Of a stretch of DNA of 47,620 bases, positions 7,266 through 43,311 are shown one piece after another. The stretch's first letter is position 1, and each line of letters starts with the position of its first letter. The translations under genes and the position numbers were made by a program. Source of the stretch: Alphaproteobacteria bacterium (GTDB lineage Bacteria > Pseudomonadota > Alphaproteobacteria > Sphingomonadales > Kordiimonadaceae); assembly GCA_006226495.1 (NCBI GenBank), contig SBGU01000019.1, forward strand, positions 1 through 47,620, given 5' to 3'. The notes beneath the pieces were generated by a model. The model made no database searches. It was not told the origin of the DNA and saw nothing but the letters and a program-made list of their open reading frames with translations.

Positions 7266-8434
7266 TGGGCTGTATGGAAAAGGCTGACCTGAAAGCATTC
7301 TGGGACCTGGTGGTCGATGTCTGGACCGCGGGCCTATACGGCATCGATATCGGCAGCATTATCCTGGCTGTGGGCATCCTGCTGTTTTTCCTGCTGGCAC
7401 GAAACCTGTTCACCCGCTTTGTCATCAACCGCTTCAGCGCCTGGGCGAAAAAAAGCCGCACCAGCCTCGATGATTCGCTTCTCGAGACTCTCGAACCGCC
7501 GATCCGCTTCATCCCGGTCGTGCTCGGTTTCTTTTTTGCAACCAGTTTCATCGATTTCAATGATCAGGCTTATGTGTTCATCACCAATGTGAACCGGTCA
7601 CTGGTTGCCTTCACAATCTTCTGGGCGCTGTACCGGGCGGCCGACCCTGTCTCGGAACTGCTGCGGCATGCCGAGCATTTCCTGACCGTGGCCATGATCG
7701 ACTGGTTCGCAAAAGCGACCAAGATCGCTTTTGCCTTGTTGGGCGGCGCCACGATCCTCGAAATCTGGGGTATCCAGGTCGGGCCGATCATCGCCGGCCT
7801 CGGCCTGTTCGGTGTTGCCGTCGCCCTGGGCGCGCAGGACCTGTTCAAGAACCTGATTGCCGGCCTGTTTGTGATTGGCGAACGCCGTTTCCTGCCTGGC
7901 GACTGGATTCTGGTGGACGGTGTCGTTGAAGGCACGGTTGAACATATCGGGTTTCGCACCACCATGGTGCGGCGCTTCGACAAGGCACCGGTTTATGTGC
8001 CGAACGCCAAACTGTCCGACAATGCCGTGACCAACTTTTCGCGCATGACCTTCCGCCGCATCAAATGGCTGATCGGCCTTGAATATGGCTCGACCGCAGA
8101 ACAATTGCAGCAGGTGCGCGACAATATCGAGAATTACCTCGCCAACAATGACGCGTTCGCCCGGCCCGAGGACACGGCGACCTTTGTGCGGATCGACCGC
8201 TTTTCCGACAGTTCCATCGATATCCTTCTCTATTGTTTCACCAATACCACCGACTGGCTGGAATGGCTGGCGATCAAGGAAAAACTGCTGCTGGCGATAA
8301 AACATATTGTCGAAGAAGCCGGAACCGGCTTTGCATTCCCCAGCCGTTCCCTGTATCTCGAAACGATGCCGGGTGAATTTGAGCTCGCCCCGCTTCACAC
8401 CCAGGACAAAGCCGCAAAGGACGCCAGACCATGA
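7265..8434 (+). CDS. MscS-family mechanosensitive ion channel
   Basis: A 389-residue protein with N-terminal membrane helices (about 20-45, 75-100, 105-125) and the pore helix with small residues in GLGLFGVAVALGAQDLFKN. This is followed by the MscS beta domain signature RRFLPGDWILVDGVVEGTVEHIG and PNAKLSDNAVTNFSR. It should open under membrane tension to release solutes during osmotic downshock. The ATG at 7265 overlaps the preceding stop (TGATG), and AAAGGA lies just upstream. The stop overlaps the thioesterase start (ATGA). Confidence 0.92.
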   Translation: MGCMEKADLKAFWDLVVDVWTAGLYGIDIGSIILAVGILLFFLLARNLFTRFVINRFSAWAKKSRTSLDDSLLETLEPPIRFIPVVLGFFFATSFIDFNDQAYVFITNVNRSLVAFTIFWALYRAADPVSELLRHAEHFLTVAMIDWFAKATKIAFALLGGATILEIWGIQVGPIIAGLGLFGVAVALGAQDLFKNLIAGLFVIGERRFLPGDWILVDGVVEGTVEHIGFRTTMVRRFDKAPVYVPNAKLSDNAVTNFSRMTFRRIKWLIGLEYGSTAEQLQQVRDNIENYLANNDAFARPEDTATFVRIDRFSDSSIDILLYCFTNTTDWLEWLAIKEKLLLAIKHIVEEAGTGFAFPSRSLYLETMPGEFELAPLHTQDKAAKDARP

Positions 8435-8826
8435 CCGAACGCCGCCGCGCGACCATCCGCACCATCCCGCAGCCGTCCGACCTCAATGTGAATGGCAACA
8501 TTTTTGGCGGTTGGGTCCTGTGTCAGATGGATCTGGCCGGCGCCGACACCGCCAGCCGCACCGCCTGCGGCCCGGTGGCGACTGTCGCGATCGAAGGCAT
8601 GAAGTTTCACCAGCCCATCAATCTGGGCGATGTGATCAGTGTCTATACCGACGTCGAAAAAATCGGCCGCAGTTCGATTACCGTGATGATCGAGGTTTAT
8701 GCCGAACGTGGCATCGAACGCCAAAGCCACAAGGTAACAGAAGGCCGCTATATTTTTGTGGCCATCGACGAGCACGGCCGCCCGCGCCCCGTGCCGGAGG
8801 CCGGACGCCAGAAAACCACCGCCTAG
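8431..8826 (+). CDS. Acyl-CoA thioesterase, hotdog fold (YciA type)
   Basis: A 131-residue single hotdog-domain protein. The signature NVNGNIFGGWVLCQMDLAG holds the Asn and active-site region of YciA-type thioesterases, followed by the family-typical GMKFHQPINLGDVISVY and RYIFVAID strands. It should hydrolyse medium- to long-chain acyl-CoAs in the cytoplasm. It overlaps the channel gene by four bases, so it is the last gene of an operon running from 6178. Its stop overlaps the stop of the convergent gene at 8823. Confidence 0.88.
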   Translation: MTERRRATIRTIPQPSDLNVNGNIFGGWVLCQMDLAGADTASRTACGPVATVAIEGMKFHQPINLGDVISVYTDVEKIGRSSITVMIEVYAERGIERQSHKVTEGRYIFVAIDEHGRPRPVPEAGRQKTTA

Positions 8827-40084: not shown

Positions 40085-40687
40085 TCAATGTATCTGCATC
40101 GAAGCAGCGGGACCGTGCAGATGCACGTCCCGGCCAGCATGGCGCCTGAGGATATCAAGCGCCTTCTGTTCCTGGTTCAGGCTGCCGGTGCGTACCCACA
40201 ACAGAAGCCCGCCCCAGGCCTGTTCCCGCCGCAGGCGTTCGCGGGTGCGCCGTGCATGCCGGAACGCAATGGCCCCGCCGCAGGCCGCACCGAACAGGCC
40301 CAGCCCGGTGGTCAGCACCGCCGCCTGCCACGCAAGCATACCGTGCGCGGTGGCGATACCGGCGCCAACAAGCAGCAGCACATAGACAGGCACAAAGGCG
40401 ACCACGAGCAGCACGGTCGAACGGCTGCCCCGGTCCACATGCGCCTCGCGCGGCACACTGGCGTCGTCCTCAAGTTCAGCGACATTGCGCACCGGGTGCC
40501 TGAGCGCACTTTCCACCGCATCGGGCGCCACGGGGCGTGATACGGCGGCATTCGAAAAGCCATGGCTTTCGAGGTCGTCGACAGCGTCCTGAAGGTCCTG
40601 TTCGGTGTCAAACAGGGCAACTGCCTCCCGGAAGTTGCCACGCGGGCCCTTTGCATCGGCCCATTCCCAGTGTTCCTGGTCGGTCAT
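40085..40687 (-). CDS. Two-helix membrane protein of unknown function
   Basis: A 200-residue protein. The N-terminal 75 residues resemble a small alpha-beta domain (REAVALFDTEQDLQDAVDDL) like that seen in general-stress membrane proteins. Two hydrophobic helices follow (about 90-113 and 116-138), and the C-terminal part holds a second similar domain (LLLWVRTGSLNQEQKALDIL). It ends near a His (ASMQIH). ATG 40687 follows GGGAGGG. The duplicated domain suggests a role in oligomerisation. No firm function. Confidence 0.75.
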   Translation of the reverse strand: MTDQEHWEWADAKGPRGNFREAVALFDTEQDLQDAVDDLESHGFSNAAVSRPVAPDAVESALRHPVRNVAELEDDASVPREAHVDRGSRSTVLLVVAFVPVYVLLLVGAGIATAHGMLAWQAAVLTTGLGLFGAACGGAIAFRHARRTRERLRREQAWGGLLLWVRTGSLNQEQKALDILRRHAGRDVHLHGPAASMQIH

Positions 40688-40830
40688 GATAAATCCCTCC
40701 CATTTCAAGGTTACTGGAAGGGCCATTATGCCACAGTTTCGACCGGAACCCGAATCCAACTTCGGATACATCTTTTCAGGCATCCGCCTGTCATAAGGCT
40801 TTAAATTCGCACGCGGAACGCTTATATCAG

Positions 40831-41165
40831 TCGTGCCGGGCAACCGGCTATGGCGATAAACGGCGCATTAAGTAGGTATTTCGGACCCGGGGGCGGTACC
40901 CGGCGCCTCCACCAGAAACGGCCAGCAGGCCAGCGGTCGGCAGACCGTTTCTGATGGGGGCGAAATAGGATCGACGTGTATTGAACGGTGTATTGCTTTT
41001 CGCTCAGGATGGTACCGCTGTGATGGGCCAAAACGAATAAATGCTAACGACAATGACGTCGAGTTTGCTGTTGCTGCGTAAGCGGTCCCAGTAAGCTACA
41101 TTTATAAATTCCTGATGGTTGACGCCAACAGGTGGGGTCCGGGCCACCTAGCAACAGAACGGCCC
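40831..41165 (+). ncRNA. ssrA: Circularly permuted two-piece tmRNA (ssrA)
   Basis: The acceptor piece comes first: a GCCGG-GCAA-CCGGC hairpin (40835-40848), TTTCGGACCCGGG, a T-arm CCGGG-loop-CCCGG, then CGCCTCC and ACCA ending at 40914. An intervening loop (40915-40955) is closed by GAAACGG/CCGTTTC. The coding piece starts at 40956 with GGGGGCG, which pairs with CGCCTCC (one G-U) to rebuild the seven-pair acceptor stem, followed by the conserved AGGATCGACG. The tag frame GCT at 41043 to TAA at 41081 encodes ANDNDVEFAVAA. The conserved CTAGCAACAGAA near the 3' end matches the family. tmRNA rescues stalled ribosomes and marks products for ClpXP. Outer ends are approximate (about 15 bases). Confidence 0.95.
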
Positions 41166-41373
41166 ATATTCTTTTCCCCAGCACTATATCCGAAAGCAAG
41201 CATACCGGTTCCCGACGGGAGTGGCTGGCGCATCGGTATGGTCGAGCCAGAAAATGTCAGAATCGCGTTGCACTATTTTGACTATAGTCATCATGCACCC
41301 CACCGCTTGTTGCCGGCAGCAGCATCTTCAGGACAGGTAACAGGCGGTTGTTACCGCCAACGCCGAGTACAAA

Positions 41374-41518: not shown

Positions 41519-41860
41519 CTACTGGCAATAGGCCGTATCGAAACTGTCGTCTTCAGCGCCGTCCAGCAACGCCTGGATTTCGGCATAGGTCAGCGCGAAC
41601 AGACGATCCTCGTAGCTCATGCCCGCGACGGCATAGAGAATCCGCGCCAGCGCCTGCTGCACATAGCCAATGTCCATGCGGTCCTGCGGGTCGGCAACAA
41701 GGTCCTCGCCGGCGCTGACATTGGCCAGGCGTTCAACCCTGACCACAATCGATTCAATGCGTGCCCGGTTCAACTGCGACAACAGGAAGCCCAGTTGATC
41801 GATAGCGCCGCCAAGATTGAGCGGAGCCGATCGGCTGAAGTTTTTGGCAACAAGGTTCAT
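41519..41860 (-). CDS. Unknown 113-residue protein coupled to luxI (orfX)
   Basis: A small protein that I do not recognise. It has no membrane segment or signal peptide. The first half has amphipathic helix-like stretches (AIDQLGFLLSQLNRARIES and VVRVERLANV), followed by a second helical part (DIGYVQQALARILYAVAGMS) and an acidic C-terminus. Its ATG overlaps the luxI stop (ATGA), so it is translated with luxI. A role in signal synthesis, as a helper or inhibitor of LuxI or LuxR, is the natural inference but unproven. Confidence 0.8.
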   Translation of the reverse strand: MNLVAKNFSRSAPLNLGGAIDQLGFLLSQLNRARIESIVVRVERLANVSAGEDLVADPQDRMDIGYVQQALARILYAVAGMSYEDRLFALTYAEIQALLDGAEDDSFDTAYCQ

Positions 41861-42492
41861 ATGGCCATCTCCAGGGTTGGTTCAGGGGCGGCCGCAACAT
41901 GCAGGACATTTCGGGCACTGCCGCATGCCGCGCGGACGATTTCAAAATGGCTTGGGTCAAGGTCGATGCCGAGCGCGACTGCCAGAGAGCCCTTTATCGG
42001 CACCGGCAACCCAAGCGGGCGGACATGCCATCCGGCTTTCAGGATAACCGGCAGGCGCGAAAGTTGGGTGACACACACCACCCGGCCAATGTCTGATTGA
42101 AGGGCATATTCATAGAGCCCGCACACAAGTTCACGTGCCACCAGGTCCCGGCAGTGCGCGGATGCAGACGGCTCCAGACAACAGAACCGCGATATGATCC
42201 AGACATTCTCGGCATTGGGCATGCCGTCTGCAAACAGGGCAGCCGACATGGCTTCAAGCGGATGCGGGCCAACGGACGGCATCAGCCGCAAGCCGCCAAG
42301 AACATTGCCATGCGTATCGATTGACAGGAGATATACGGTATCGGCGCCATCAAAACGGTCGCGCCCGATCCCCGACGCACCATCCAGGCTCCAGCCGGCT
42401 TCGCGCGCACGTTCCTGGTACCGCTGCTGCCACACCTGGCGCAGGTAACCATATTGGTCGGATCTGTCCGTGGCTCCGACGAGAACGATCAA
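41857..42492 (-). CDS. LuxI-family autoinducer synthase, atypical
   Basis: A 211-residue protein of the LuxI acyl-homoserine lactone synthase family, which makes the signal from S-adenosylmethionine and an acyl donor. Conserved positions kept are Arg24, Trp34, Asp48 and Asp51 (FDGADTVYLLSID), Arg69 (GGLRLMPS) and Arg102 (ISRFCC). The usual Glu in the W-E-x-S-R motif is replaced: here VWIISRF. The start is a TTG at 42492 with GGGGGAGG seven bases upstream; no ATG fits. It follows luxR by about 102 bases. The product cannot be predicted. Confidence 0.88.
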   Translation of the reverse strand: MIVLVGATDRSDQYGYLRQVWQQRYQERAREAGWSLDGASGIGRDRFDGADTVYLLSIDTHGNVLGGLRLMPSVGPHPLEAMSAALFADGMPNAENVWIISRFCCLEPSASAHCRDLVARELVCGLYEYALQSDIGRVVCVTQLSRLPVILKAGWHVRPLGLPVPIKGSLAVALGIDLDPSHFEIVRAACGSARNVLHVAAAPEPTLEMAI

Positions 42493-42536
42493 ACGGGCCT
42501 CCCCCTCTTGCAGGCTCGGGAAGGATCATCTTACGT

Positions 42537-42550
42537 TTGGCCGCGGCCAA
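42537..42550. promoter_or_regulatory. Perfect 14-bp palindrome upstream of luxI
   Basis: TTGGCCGCGGCCAA is perfectly symmetric and lies 45-58 bases before the luxI start in the luxR-luxI gap. It may be an operator or a leader hairpin. Confidence 0.4.
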
Positions 42551-42581
42551 CTACCGGCTGATCAGACTAGTTTTTTTTGAA

Positions 42582-42600
42582 AGGTGGTATGTTACTACCT
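42582..42600. promoter_or_regulatory. Candidate lux box between luxR and luxI
   Basis: AGGTGGTATGTTACTACCT is a 19-base imperfect inverted repeat (AGGTgGTA-N3-TACtACCT) that overlaps the luxR stop codon and lies about 90-108 bases upstream of luxI. Size, symmetry and place fit a LuxR-type operator. The sequence does not match the canonical lux box, so the call rests on position. Confidence 0.45.
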
Positions 42601-43311
42601 ATGATTAATCAGGCTGGACAGAAACGCCTTCACAACCGCCTGCACCCGGGTATGGACCCCAAGCTTCAGTTTCGCGCTTTCGACATGATTATGGACCGTG
42701 CGTTCGGCAATCGACAGGATCGACGCAATTTCCCAGTCTGTCTTGCCCGCAGCCACCCATTCAAGGCACTGGCGTTCGCGCGCGGTCAGGCGCACGACCG
42801 GATGTTCGGCAGTGCCGTCCCCTGACTTCAACTTCAACGCAGCTTCGTGCAGATAGATGCTCATCAGGTGGATGGCGTGTTCTGCCGCCGGATCTATGTC
42901 GGCATCAATGCCGACGATATTGACTGCACCAGGAAAAGCACCCGCGACATGGATGGGCACGGTGACACCATTCAGCACATAAATCTCGCCCGGCTGGTTA
43001 TCGCTATCCGCCACAACCAATTCATGTTCCCAGTTGAATGGCAGGTTCTGGCGCGGAGAAAGCTGCAAGATACGCGCGGTCTGGACGCCGGAATCGCCGC
43101 TGGTTGTTGATGCCCAGTCATCGGGGAAATCCGCCAGGAACACCACGCTTTCAGGGGTGGACCCGACCTCGACACAGGCTACGCAGGCATAATGCCGAAA
43201 TCCCAACTGGCGCGCTGTTTTCAGGAATGACTGGCCGAGCTCATCCAGACTGTCGACCGACCTGGATGCATCGATAAAATCCATTGCAAGCTGAAAATAC
43301 TCGAGTTTCAT
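42595..43311 (-). CDS. LuxR-family regulator, atypical ligand pocket
   Basis: A 238-residue protein with an N-terminal autoinducer-binding domain (about 5-160) and a C-terminal LuxR HTH (about 173-230, LTARERQCLEWVAAGKTDWE, TVHNHVESAKLKLGVHTR). The domain keeps Trp66 and Trp94, spaced exactly as in LuxR (28). At the positions of the usual Tyr61, Asp70 and Pro71, it has Thr70, Ala79 and Arg80. The GVTVPIHVAG motif is kept. ATG 43311 follows AGGGGA; a longer in-frame start is less likely. It probably controls luxI and orfX. Confidence 0.9.
   Translation of the reverse strand: MKLEYFQLAMDFIDASRSVDSLDELGQSFLKTARQLGFRHYACVACVEVGSTPESVVFLADFPDDWASTTSGDSGVQTARILQLSPRQNLPFNWEHELVVADSDNQPGEIYVLNGVTVPIHVAGAFPGAVNIVGIDADIDPAAEHAIHLMSIYLHEAALKLKSGDGTAEHPVVRLTARERQCLEWVAAGKTDWEIASILSIAERTVHNHVESAKLKLGVHTRVQAVVKAFLSSLINHR

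Follow-up and report, generated by a model that had tools for sequence, protein, structure and literature searches.

The question raised by this locus is whether a LuxI-type synthase and a LuxR-type receptor that have both diverged from their families still make and sense an acyl-homoserine lactone (AHL), have moved to another signal, or have lost signaling. The window, that is, the whole stretch of 47,620 nucleotides analysed here, is one entire contig of the 4.32 Mb draft genome (60 contigs) of a member of the genus Kordiimonas. The original prediction was of an intact luxR-luxI-orfX cassette whose synthase and receptor had diverged jointly toward a different ligand and had not decayed. The cassette itself is as described: all three genes are open frames, with no stop codon or frameshift, at the positions given in Table 1; luxR and luxI are separated by 102 bases, and the third gene is coupled to luxI through the four-base ATGA at 41857-41860. 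The luxI gene of the window starts with TTG, upstream of which lies GAGGGGGAG, whereas three congeners have ATG. A genome scan found a single LuxI in the host, and a second luxI was rejected. On one side the cassette is flanked by thyA and a tmRNA gene, on the other by sspB and fumarase (protein genes named by eye). The permuted, alphaproteobacterial tmRNA is on the plus strand at 40796-41168 according to Rfam and at 40822-41172 according to ARAGORN, with the tag ANDNDVEFAVAA, and the lux cassette is placed between it and the nearby sspB. In other bacteria, SspB is an adaptor for tmRNA-tagged proteins. We consider it reasonably probable that AHL synthesis and sensing have been lost here and that a circuit of LuxR, operator and OrfX persists.

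Table 1 Features of the lux cassette, numbered from the first base of the window
Feature	Position	Strand	Description
luxR	42595..43311	minus	238 aa; autoinducer-binding and GerE HTH domains
LuxR residues 60-90	43042..43134	minus	rewritten ligand-pocket segment (TraR W57-W85 region); changed in 11 of the 19 columns on which three relatives agree
20-bp element CTAGTCTGATCAGCCGGTAG	42551..42570	minus	in the luxR-luxI gap and found at this place in six loci; candidate LuxR operator
luxI	41857..42492	minus	211 aa; TTG start; Autoind_synth family
LuxI codon 28	42409..42411	minus	Arg; Phe, Tyr or Leu in 80 of 80 others surveyed
LuxI codon 99	42196..42198	minus	Ile at the Glu of W-E-x-S-R; Glu or Asp in 80 of 80 others
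orfX	41519..41860	minus	113 aa; predicted four-helix protein; 4-base overlap with luxI

The window LuxI passes the PF00765 family threshold with 75.8 bits (cut-off 24) and is below the cut-offs of the TraI-type NCBIfam models NF010408 (73.7 versus 292 bits) and NF052393 (71.6 versus 250 bits). It possesses the core residues Arg24, Trp34, Asp45, Asp48, Arg69 and Arg102, and also Ser101. In a comparison set of 80 other LuxIs (51 from the family and order, 29 from the class), taken from the loci of best-scoring matches and consequently leaning toward canonical proteins and under-sampling weak or odd ones, Arg24, Asp45, Asp48, Arg69 and Arg102 are invariant and Trp34 is present in 75; where the window has Ile99, 76 carry Glu and 4 Asp, and where it has Arg28, 68 carry Phe, 8 Tyr and 4 Leu. 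The six retained core residues indicate that the fold, and probably the SAM site, may be under selection. The replacement of the W-E-x-S-R pattern by VWIISRF, noticed in the original prediction, is borne out by a gapless alignment, in which it faces VWELSRF in an AHL synthase of solved structure and W-E-x-SRF in the three congeners; the change of Phe28 to Arg had been missed. Shifted alignments of LuxI and LuxR were ruled out by comparison with the solved synthase, QscR and the congeners, and the substitutions are real.

In mutagenesis work on LuxI and RhlI, the Glu of W-E-x-S-R is said to be essential, and we know of no characterised LuxI-type enzyme that lacks an acidic residue at this position. 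Because it has neither the acid of W-E-x-S-R nor Phe28, the window LuxI has likely lost AHL synthesis, though the core residues are kept. It is highly improbable that the pair still makes and senses an ordinary AHL despite its substitutions, as position 99 is acidic throughout the comparison set and the Glu is reportedly indispensable; such an outcome would nevertheless agree with a PF00765 score far over the cut-off and with a LuxR pocket that retains both Trp residues and the Gly. It would also agree with the LuxI set in the accessible part of PMC5539150, where identity is 83%, not 100%, at Glu101 and 92% at Phe29, so that exceptions exist elsewhere; the lack of universality of Glu101 counts against a loss of synthesis as well. 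A table in the excerpted text of PMC9654057 places Glu101 among the active-site residues of LasI, RhlI and TraI, together with Phe27, Phe29 and Phe28, respectively. The papers found in our literature search for evidence on catalytic residues gave no more than lists of residues that are conserved or belong to the active site.

The window LuxR matches PF03472 (52.3 bits, cut-off 23) and the GerE domain PF00196 (72.4 bits, cut-off 23.5). Its Trp66 and Trp94 are the family Trp pair (Trp57 and Trp85 of TraR), at the expected spacing of 28 in an ungapped QscR alignment, and the Glu179, Leu183 and Gly189 of its HTH correspond by spacing to E178, L182 and G188. The key residues of AHL-responsive LuxRs, as given in the part of PMC4338825 seen, are W57, Y61, D70, P71, W85 and G113. 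Three of these six are present in the window (W57, W85 and G113), and the others have become Thr70 (Y61T, codon 43102-43104), Ala79 (D70A, codon 43075-43077) and Arg80 (P71R, codon 43072-43074), which are the Thr, Ala and Arg of the original prediction and hold up in both the QscR alignment and the congener comparison. The joint divergence of synthase and receptor is confirmed. Within the ligand domain, 9 of 64 columns are changed outside residues 60-90 (Table 1), a clustering count made for the window only among the species. Among the pocket changes is a stretch rich in Gly, Ser and Thr (STTSGDSG), and a 7-residue loop preceding GVTVP is deleted, which had also been overlooked.

Not all of these changes carry equal weight. 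A similar loop is missing from the first of the two K. gwangyangensis LuxRs, whose neighboring LuxI is canonical, so the deletion is weak evidence. The change of Pro71 to Arg drops from the argument because it is common to K. marina and K. gwangyangensis, both of which have canonical LuxIs; the changes at the LuxI Glu, Tyr61 and Asp70 are absent there and continue to set the window apart. Asp70 is kept in all four LuxRs beside a canonical LuxI and is absent from all three others (window, G001 and G002), although these LuxRs come from related lineages and are not independent. The structure model of the window LuxR is too poor for the pocket to be read (mean pLDDT 66, and below 50 over residues 61-112). 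The pocket changes suggest that AHL sensing by this LuxR was lost; what is available of PMC4338825 states that missing key residues raise the possibility of other ligands. Two other LuxRs with autoinducer domains are encoded in the host genome. One of these, L122:1441-2163 on another contig, adjoins a gene resembling aldehyde dehydrogenase (by eye) and has Trp57, Tyr61, Asp70, Pro71 and Trp85; because it keeps these residues, the species may still be able to sense foreign AHLs through it.

The same triple, in the same order and place, is found in K. marina (G012), K. gwangyangensis (G010) and the MAG HF-Din21 (G017), confirming that it recurs. The three congeners have a canonical LuxI, with Glu and Phe28 present, and a LuxR with Tyr61 and Asp70 intact. 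Since congeners with a canonical LuxI retain all four residues, the window lineage appears to have lost them within the genus, and among the four species compared the changes are specific to it. In K. gwangyangensis, two tandem luxR genes precede luxI (L041:7176-7892 and 7952-8692). The luxI frames of the luxR-luxI-orfX loci are 222-231 codons long from stop to stop; many other LuxI homologues of the genus are in longer frames of 284-331 codons, likewise from stop to stop.

Across the family, sspB was detected in 28 of 29 genomes (G016 gave no match). Analysis of the stretch around sspB covered 27 genomes (the window included, G019 left out, and three of the others shortened by contig ends), and lux genes are present there in six: the full triple in the window and its three congeners, and luxR-orfX without luxI, at the same place, in G001 and G002, which belong to another genus. 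The LuxRs of G001 and G002 have Asn at Asp70 and no Trp57, with Tyr61 and Pro71 present. Each of these two genomes encodes, at another site, a distantly related LuxI homologue (E 6.6e-7 and 3.1e-4), so neither can be counted as AHL-free. The absence of luxI from their locus is compatible both with loss there and with gain in Kordiimonas. A loss of AHL signaling would account for the luxI-less loci no less well than a new signal would, and these loci count against the different ligand of the original prediction.

A tree built from 52 LuxIs groups the window with its three congeners in a clade with 100/100 support, in which the window LuxI is sister to that of K. marina (89/85). Its end branch is 1.43, compared with 0.13 for K. 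marina and 0.17 and 0.24 for the other two. Counting columns where three of the four species agree and one differs, the window LuxI is the odd one out at 58 of 134, and the other three LuxIs at 5/81, 4/80 and 9/85. The corresponding window counts in neighboring genes are 1/100 for SspB, 15/442 for fumarase, 5/219 for ThyA and 9/109 for the gene at 40085-40693; within the cassette they are 1/25 for orfX, 2/45 for the LuxR DNA-binding domain and 20/83 for the LuxR ligand domain. From these counts, the acceleration is specific to LuxI, with LuxR change mostly on the ligand side. The ligand domain of K. gwangyangensis LuxR, at 18/81, is nearly as divergent in sum as that of the window, which counts against reading the window's changes as loss of AHL sensing.

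An extreme branch for LuxI alone, in a 60-contig draft genome, might instead reflect replacement of luxI by a foreign or divergent copy, or an assembly artefact. We attach very little credence to either, given that the window LuxI is inside the four-species clade and beside K. marina, and that the flanking genes match those of the congeners on both sides of the cassette. A peptide-pattern scan of genome contigs with the window LuxI gave no donor, a result that applies to close donors only as the scan missed the three known relatives; a search of genomes with the clade alignment matched only the three relatives, and a close donor genome was accordingly rejected. Compensating frameshifts in luxI were also rejected: frames -1 and +1 match K. 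marina no better. The gene has no stop and no indel relative to K. marina or K. gwangyangensis.

Saturation limits the codon models, with several of the branch lengths at the bound of about 10. With free branch lengths, omega on the window LuxI branch is 0.131 versus 0.048 elsewhere (2dlnL 10.1, with the branch length at its bound); in the control genes 2dlnL reaches 8.7 at most (fumarase, HF-Din21 branch). An omega of 1 is rejected for this branch with free length (2dlnL 32.8). When the branch is fixed at 1.2, 1.7, 2.4 or 4.6, omega becomes 1.16, 0.81, 0.57 or 0.29; omega of 1 stands at a length of 1.2 (2dlnL 2.0), and the likelihood is better with longer branches. Overall, omega on the window branch is 0.13-1.16, depending on branch length, against a background of 0.045-0.052. 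Rejection of omega of 1 on the window branch with free length is weak for SspB (2dlnL 2.6) and orfX (4.1), and neither LuxR (2dlnL 1.6) nor orfX showed a significant rise of omega on that branch. Neutral decay was simulated by random mutation of the luxI of two relatives to 57% or 50% protein identity, and stop-free genes remained in 61, 47, 30 and 18 of 3000 runs. From these results, constraint on luxI has been much weakened or altered, yet the gene was probably not neutral along the whole branch. The original view that the pair had not decayed finds some support in the simulations and the free-branch rejection, but none at a branch length fixed at 1.2.

The same evidence bears on a signal switch, in which LuxI and LuxR would have co-diverged toward a different small molecule (a non-AHL, or one with an unusual acyl or amine donor), with the family core residues retained and the remodelling on the catalytic and acyl side. 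We regard this as rather unlikely: no characterised LuxI-type enzyme is known to us to lack the acidic residue, the LuxR pocket changes include the STTSGDSG run and a deletion, and two genomes of another genus lack luxI at the locus. A switch would nevertheless account for an intact frame that prolonged neutral decay would rarely leave stop-free, for an omega under 1 in the models that fit better, for the kept Arg and Asp residues of LuxI, and for changes that are clustered and not scattered (P 0.004 for LuxI and 0.002 for LuxR in a runs test, the latter in part due to the quiet DNA-binding domain). As far as the excerpts of these papers go, non-AHL receptors of the LuxR type are known (PMC4414361) and LuxR solos often carry altered residues in the pocket (PMC4338825). 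The stop-free luxI, the rejection of a neutral rate with free branch length, the kept LuxI core and the LuxR omega that is not significantly raised likewise count against a loss of AHL signaling. On balance, such a loss, with a surviving core, seems to us more likely than a move to a new signal.

The core would include DNA as well as protein. The motif CTAGTCTGATCAGCCGATAG begins 24-30 bases past the luxR stop in all six lux loci, including the two without luxI. Identity to the 20-bp element is 20/20 in K. gwangyangensis, 19 in the window, 18 in K. marina, 15 in HF-Din21 and 16 in each of G001 and G002, a summed identity of 84, against at most 59 in 400 shuffles; the best matches upstream of luxR reach only 10-12. 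Genome-wide, with up to three mismatches, the element occurs once each in the host, K. marina and K. gwangyangensis genomes and was not found in those of HF-Din21, G001 and G002; the reversed control pattern has one match in the host genome and one in that of K. gwangyangensis. Matches of 15/20 and 16/20 in two lux-free loci are elsewhere on the stretch and were taken as chance. Its place and conservation suggest that LuxR binds the element. It is possible that the element is a plain promoter; as a palindrome it is imperfect, with 6 of 9 pairs in K. gwangyangensis, and other stretches of the same gaps reach 7 of 9.

The AlphaFold model of OrfX has four helices (mean pLDDT 73). OrfX has no Pfam match, only weak or sub-cut-off matches in NCBIfam and PHROGs, and in the PDB no sequence match below E 0.8 and no fold match below E 2.5; membership of a known family was therefore rejected. 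A profile search found orfX in 6 of 29 family genomes, the six with lux loci, with other matches at E 0.2 to 0.7. Among 385 genomes of the class, orfX was present in the window's own, and one other gave a weak, partial match (E 0.006).

We propose that this is a Kordiimonas AHL quorum-sensing locus of the form luxR - operator - luxI - orfX whose AHL parts were lost on the branch leading to this species. LuxI, without the acidic residue of W-E-x-S-R and Phe28, would make no AHL, and LuxR, with its pocket segment rewritten and a nearby loop deleted, would act independently of AHL. The LuxR DNA-binding domain, the likely operator and orfX appear to remain constrained, and because of this LuxR probably still regulates the luxI-orfX operon in the absence of AHL, OrfX being a putative output or partner. 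A more tentative possibility, which we doubt but take seriously, is that LuxI has turned to another activity, either a different signal or that of a SAM-binding pseudoenzyme, in a rewired LuxR-operator-OrfX circuit whose new four-helix partner, OrfX, would so far be known from this family only. Another genus shows the same LuxR-operator-OrfX core with no luxI at the locus. Within one family the locus forms a series, from the full canonical cassette through one in which synthase and receptor are changed to luxR-orfX without luxI, making the question of how a receptor outlives its signal directly testable. The series also draws attention to OrfX, an uncharacterised small protein, as the part of the locus persisting with LuxR.

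The nearest known systems are the K. marina and K. gwangyangensis loci, which extend from thyA to sspB-fumarase and resemble the window in order, place, element, LuxR DNA-binding domain and orfX. Their LuxIs are 43-47% identical to that of the window and differ in having W-E-[VI]-SRF and Phe28, and their LuxRs differ in having Tyr61 and Asp70; K. gwangyangensis differs further in its two luxR genes. Solved LuxI-type synthases of PF00765 (3p2f, 6wn0, 6wns, 5w8a and LasI 1ro5) share the core residues from Arg24 to Arg102 and Ser101 with the window LuxI, in which Ile replaces the Glu of W-E-x-S-R and Arg replaces Phe28. HchA-linked LuxR solos, as far as the text of PMC4338825 at hand shows, have Y61F/T/S/I, D70A/R/Q/N and P71T/R/D/K, and so include the same letters as the window LuxR at all three positions. 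The best NCBIfam match of the window LuxR is TIGR03541, but at 77.9 bits, below the cut-off of 215.6, HchA-type membership was rejected; unlike those solos, the window luxR adjoins luxI, and the closest relative found is the K. marina LuxR (67% identity). Degraded luxI/luxR systems of Rhizobium comprise pseudogenes and very short or absent genes in the accessible portion of PMC13133039, and myxobacterial LuxI-like proteins without some conserved residues are described in that of PMC7862692. On these partial accounts, the cases are alike in that AHL parts are lost, or luxI is lost with luxR remaining; in contrast to the Rhizobium cases so described, the window retains a full-length luxI with active-site changes beside a receptor with an altered pocket.
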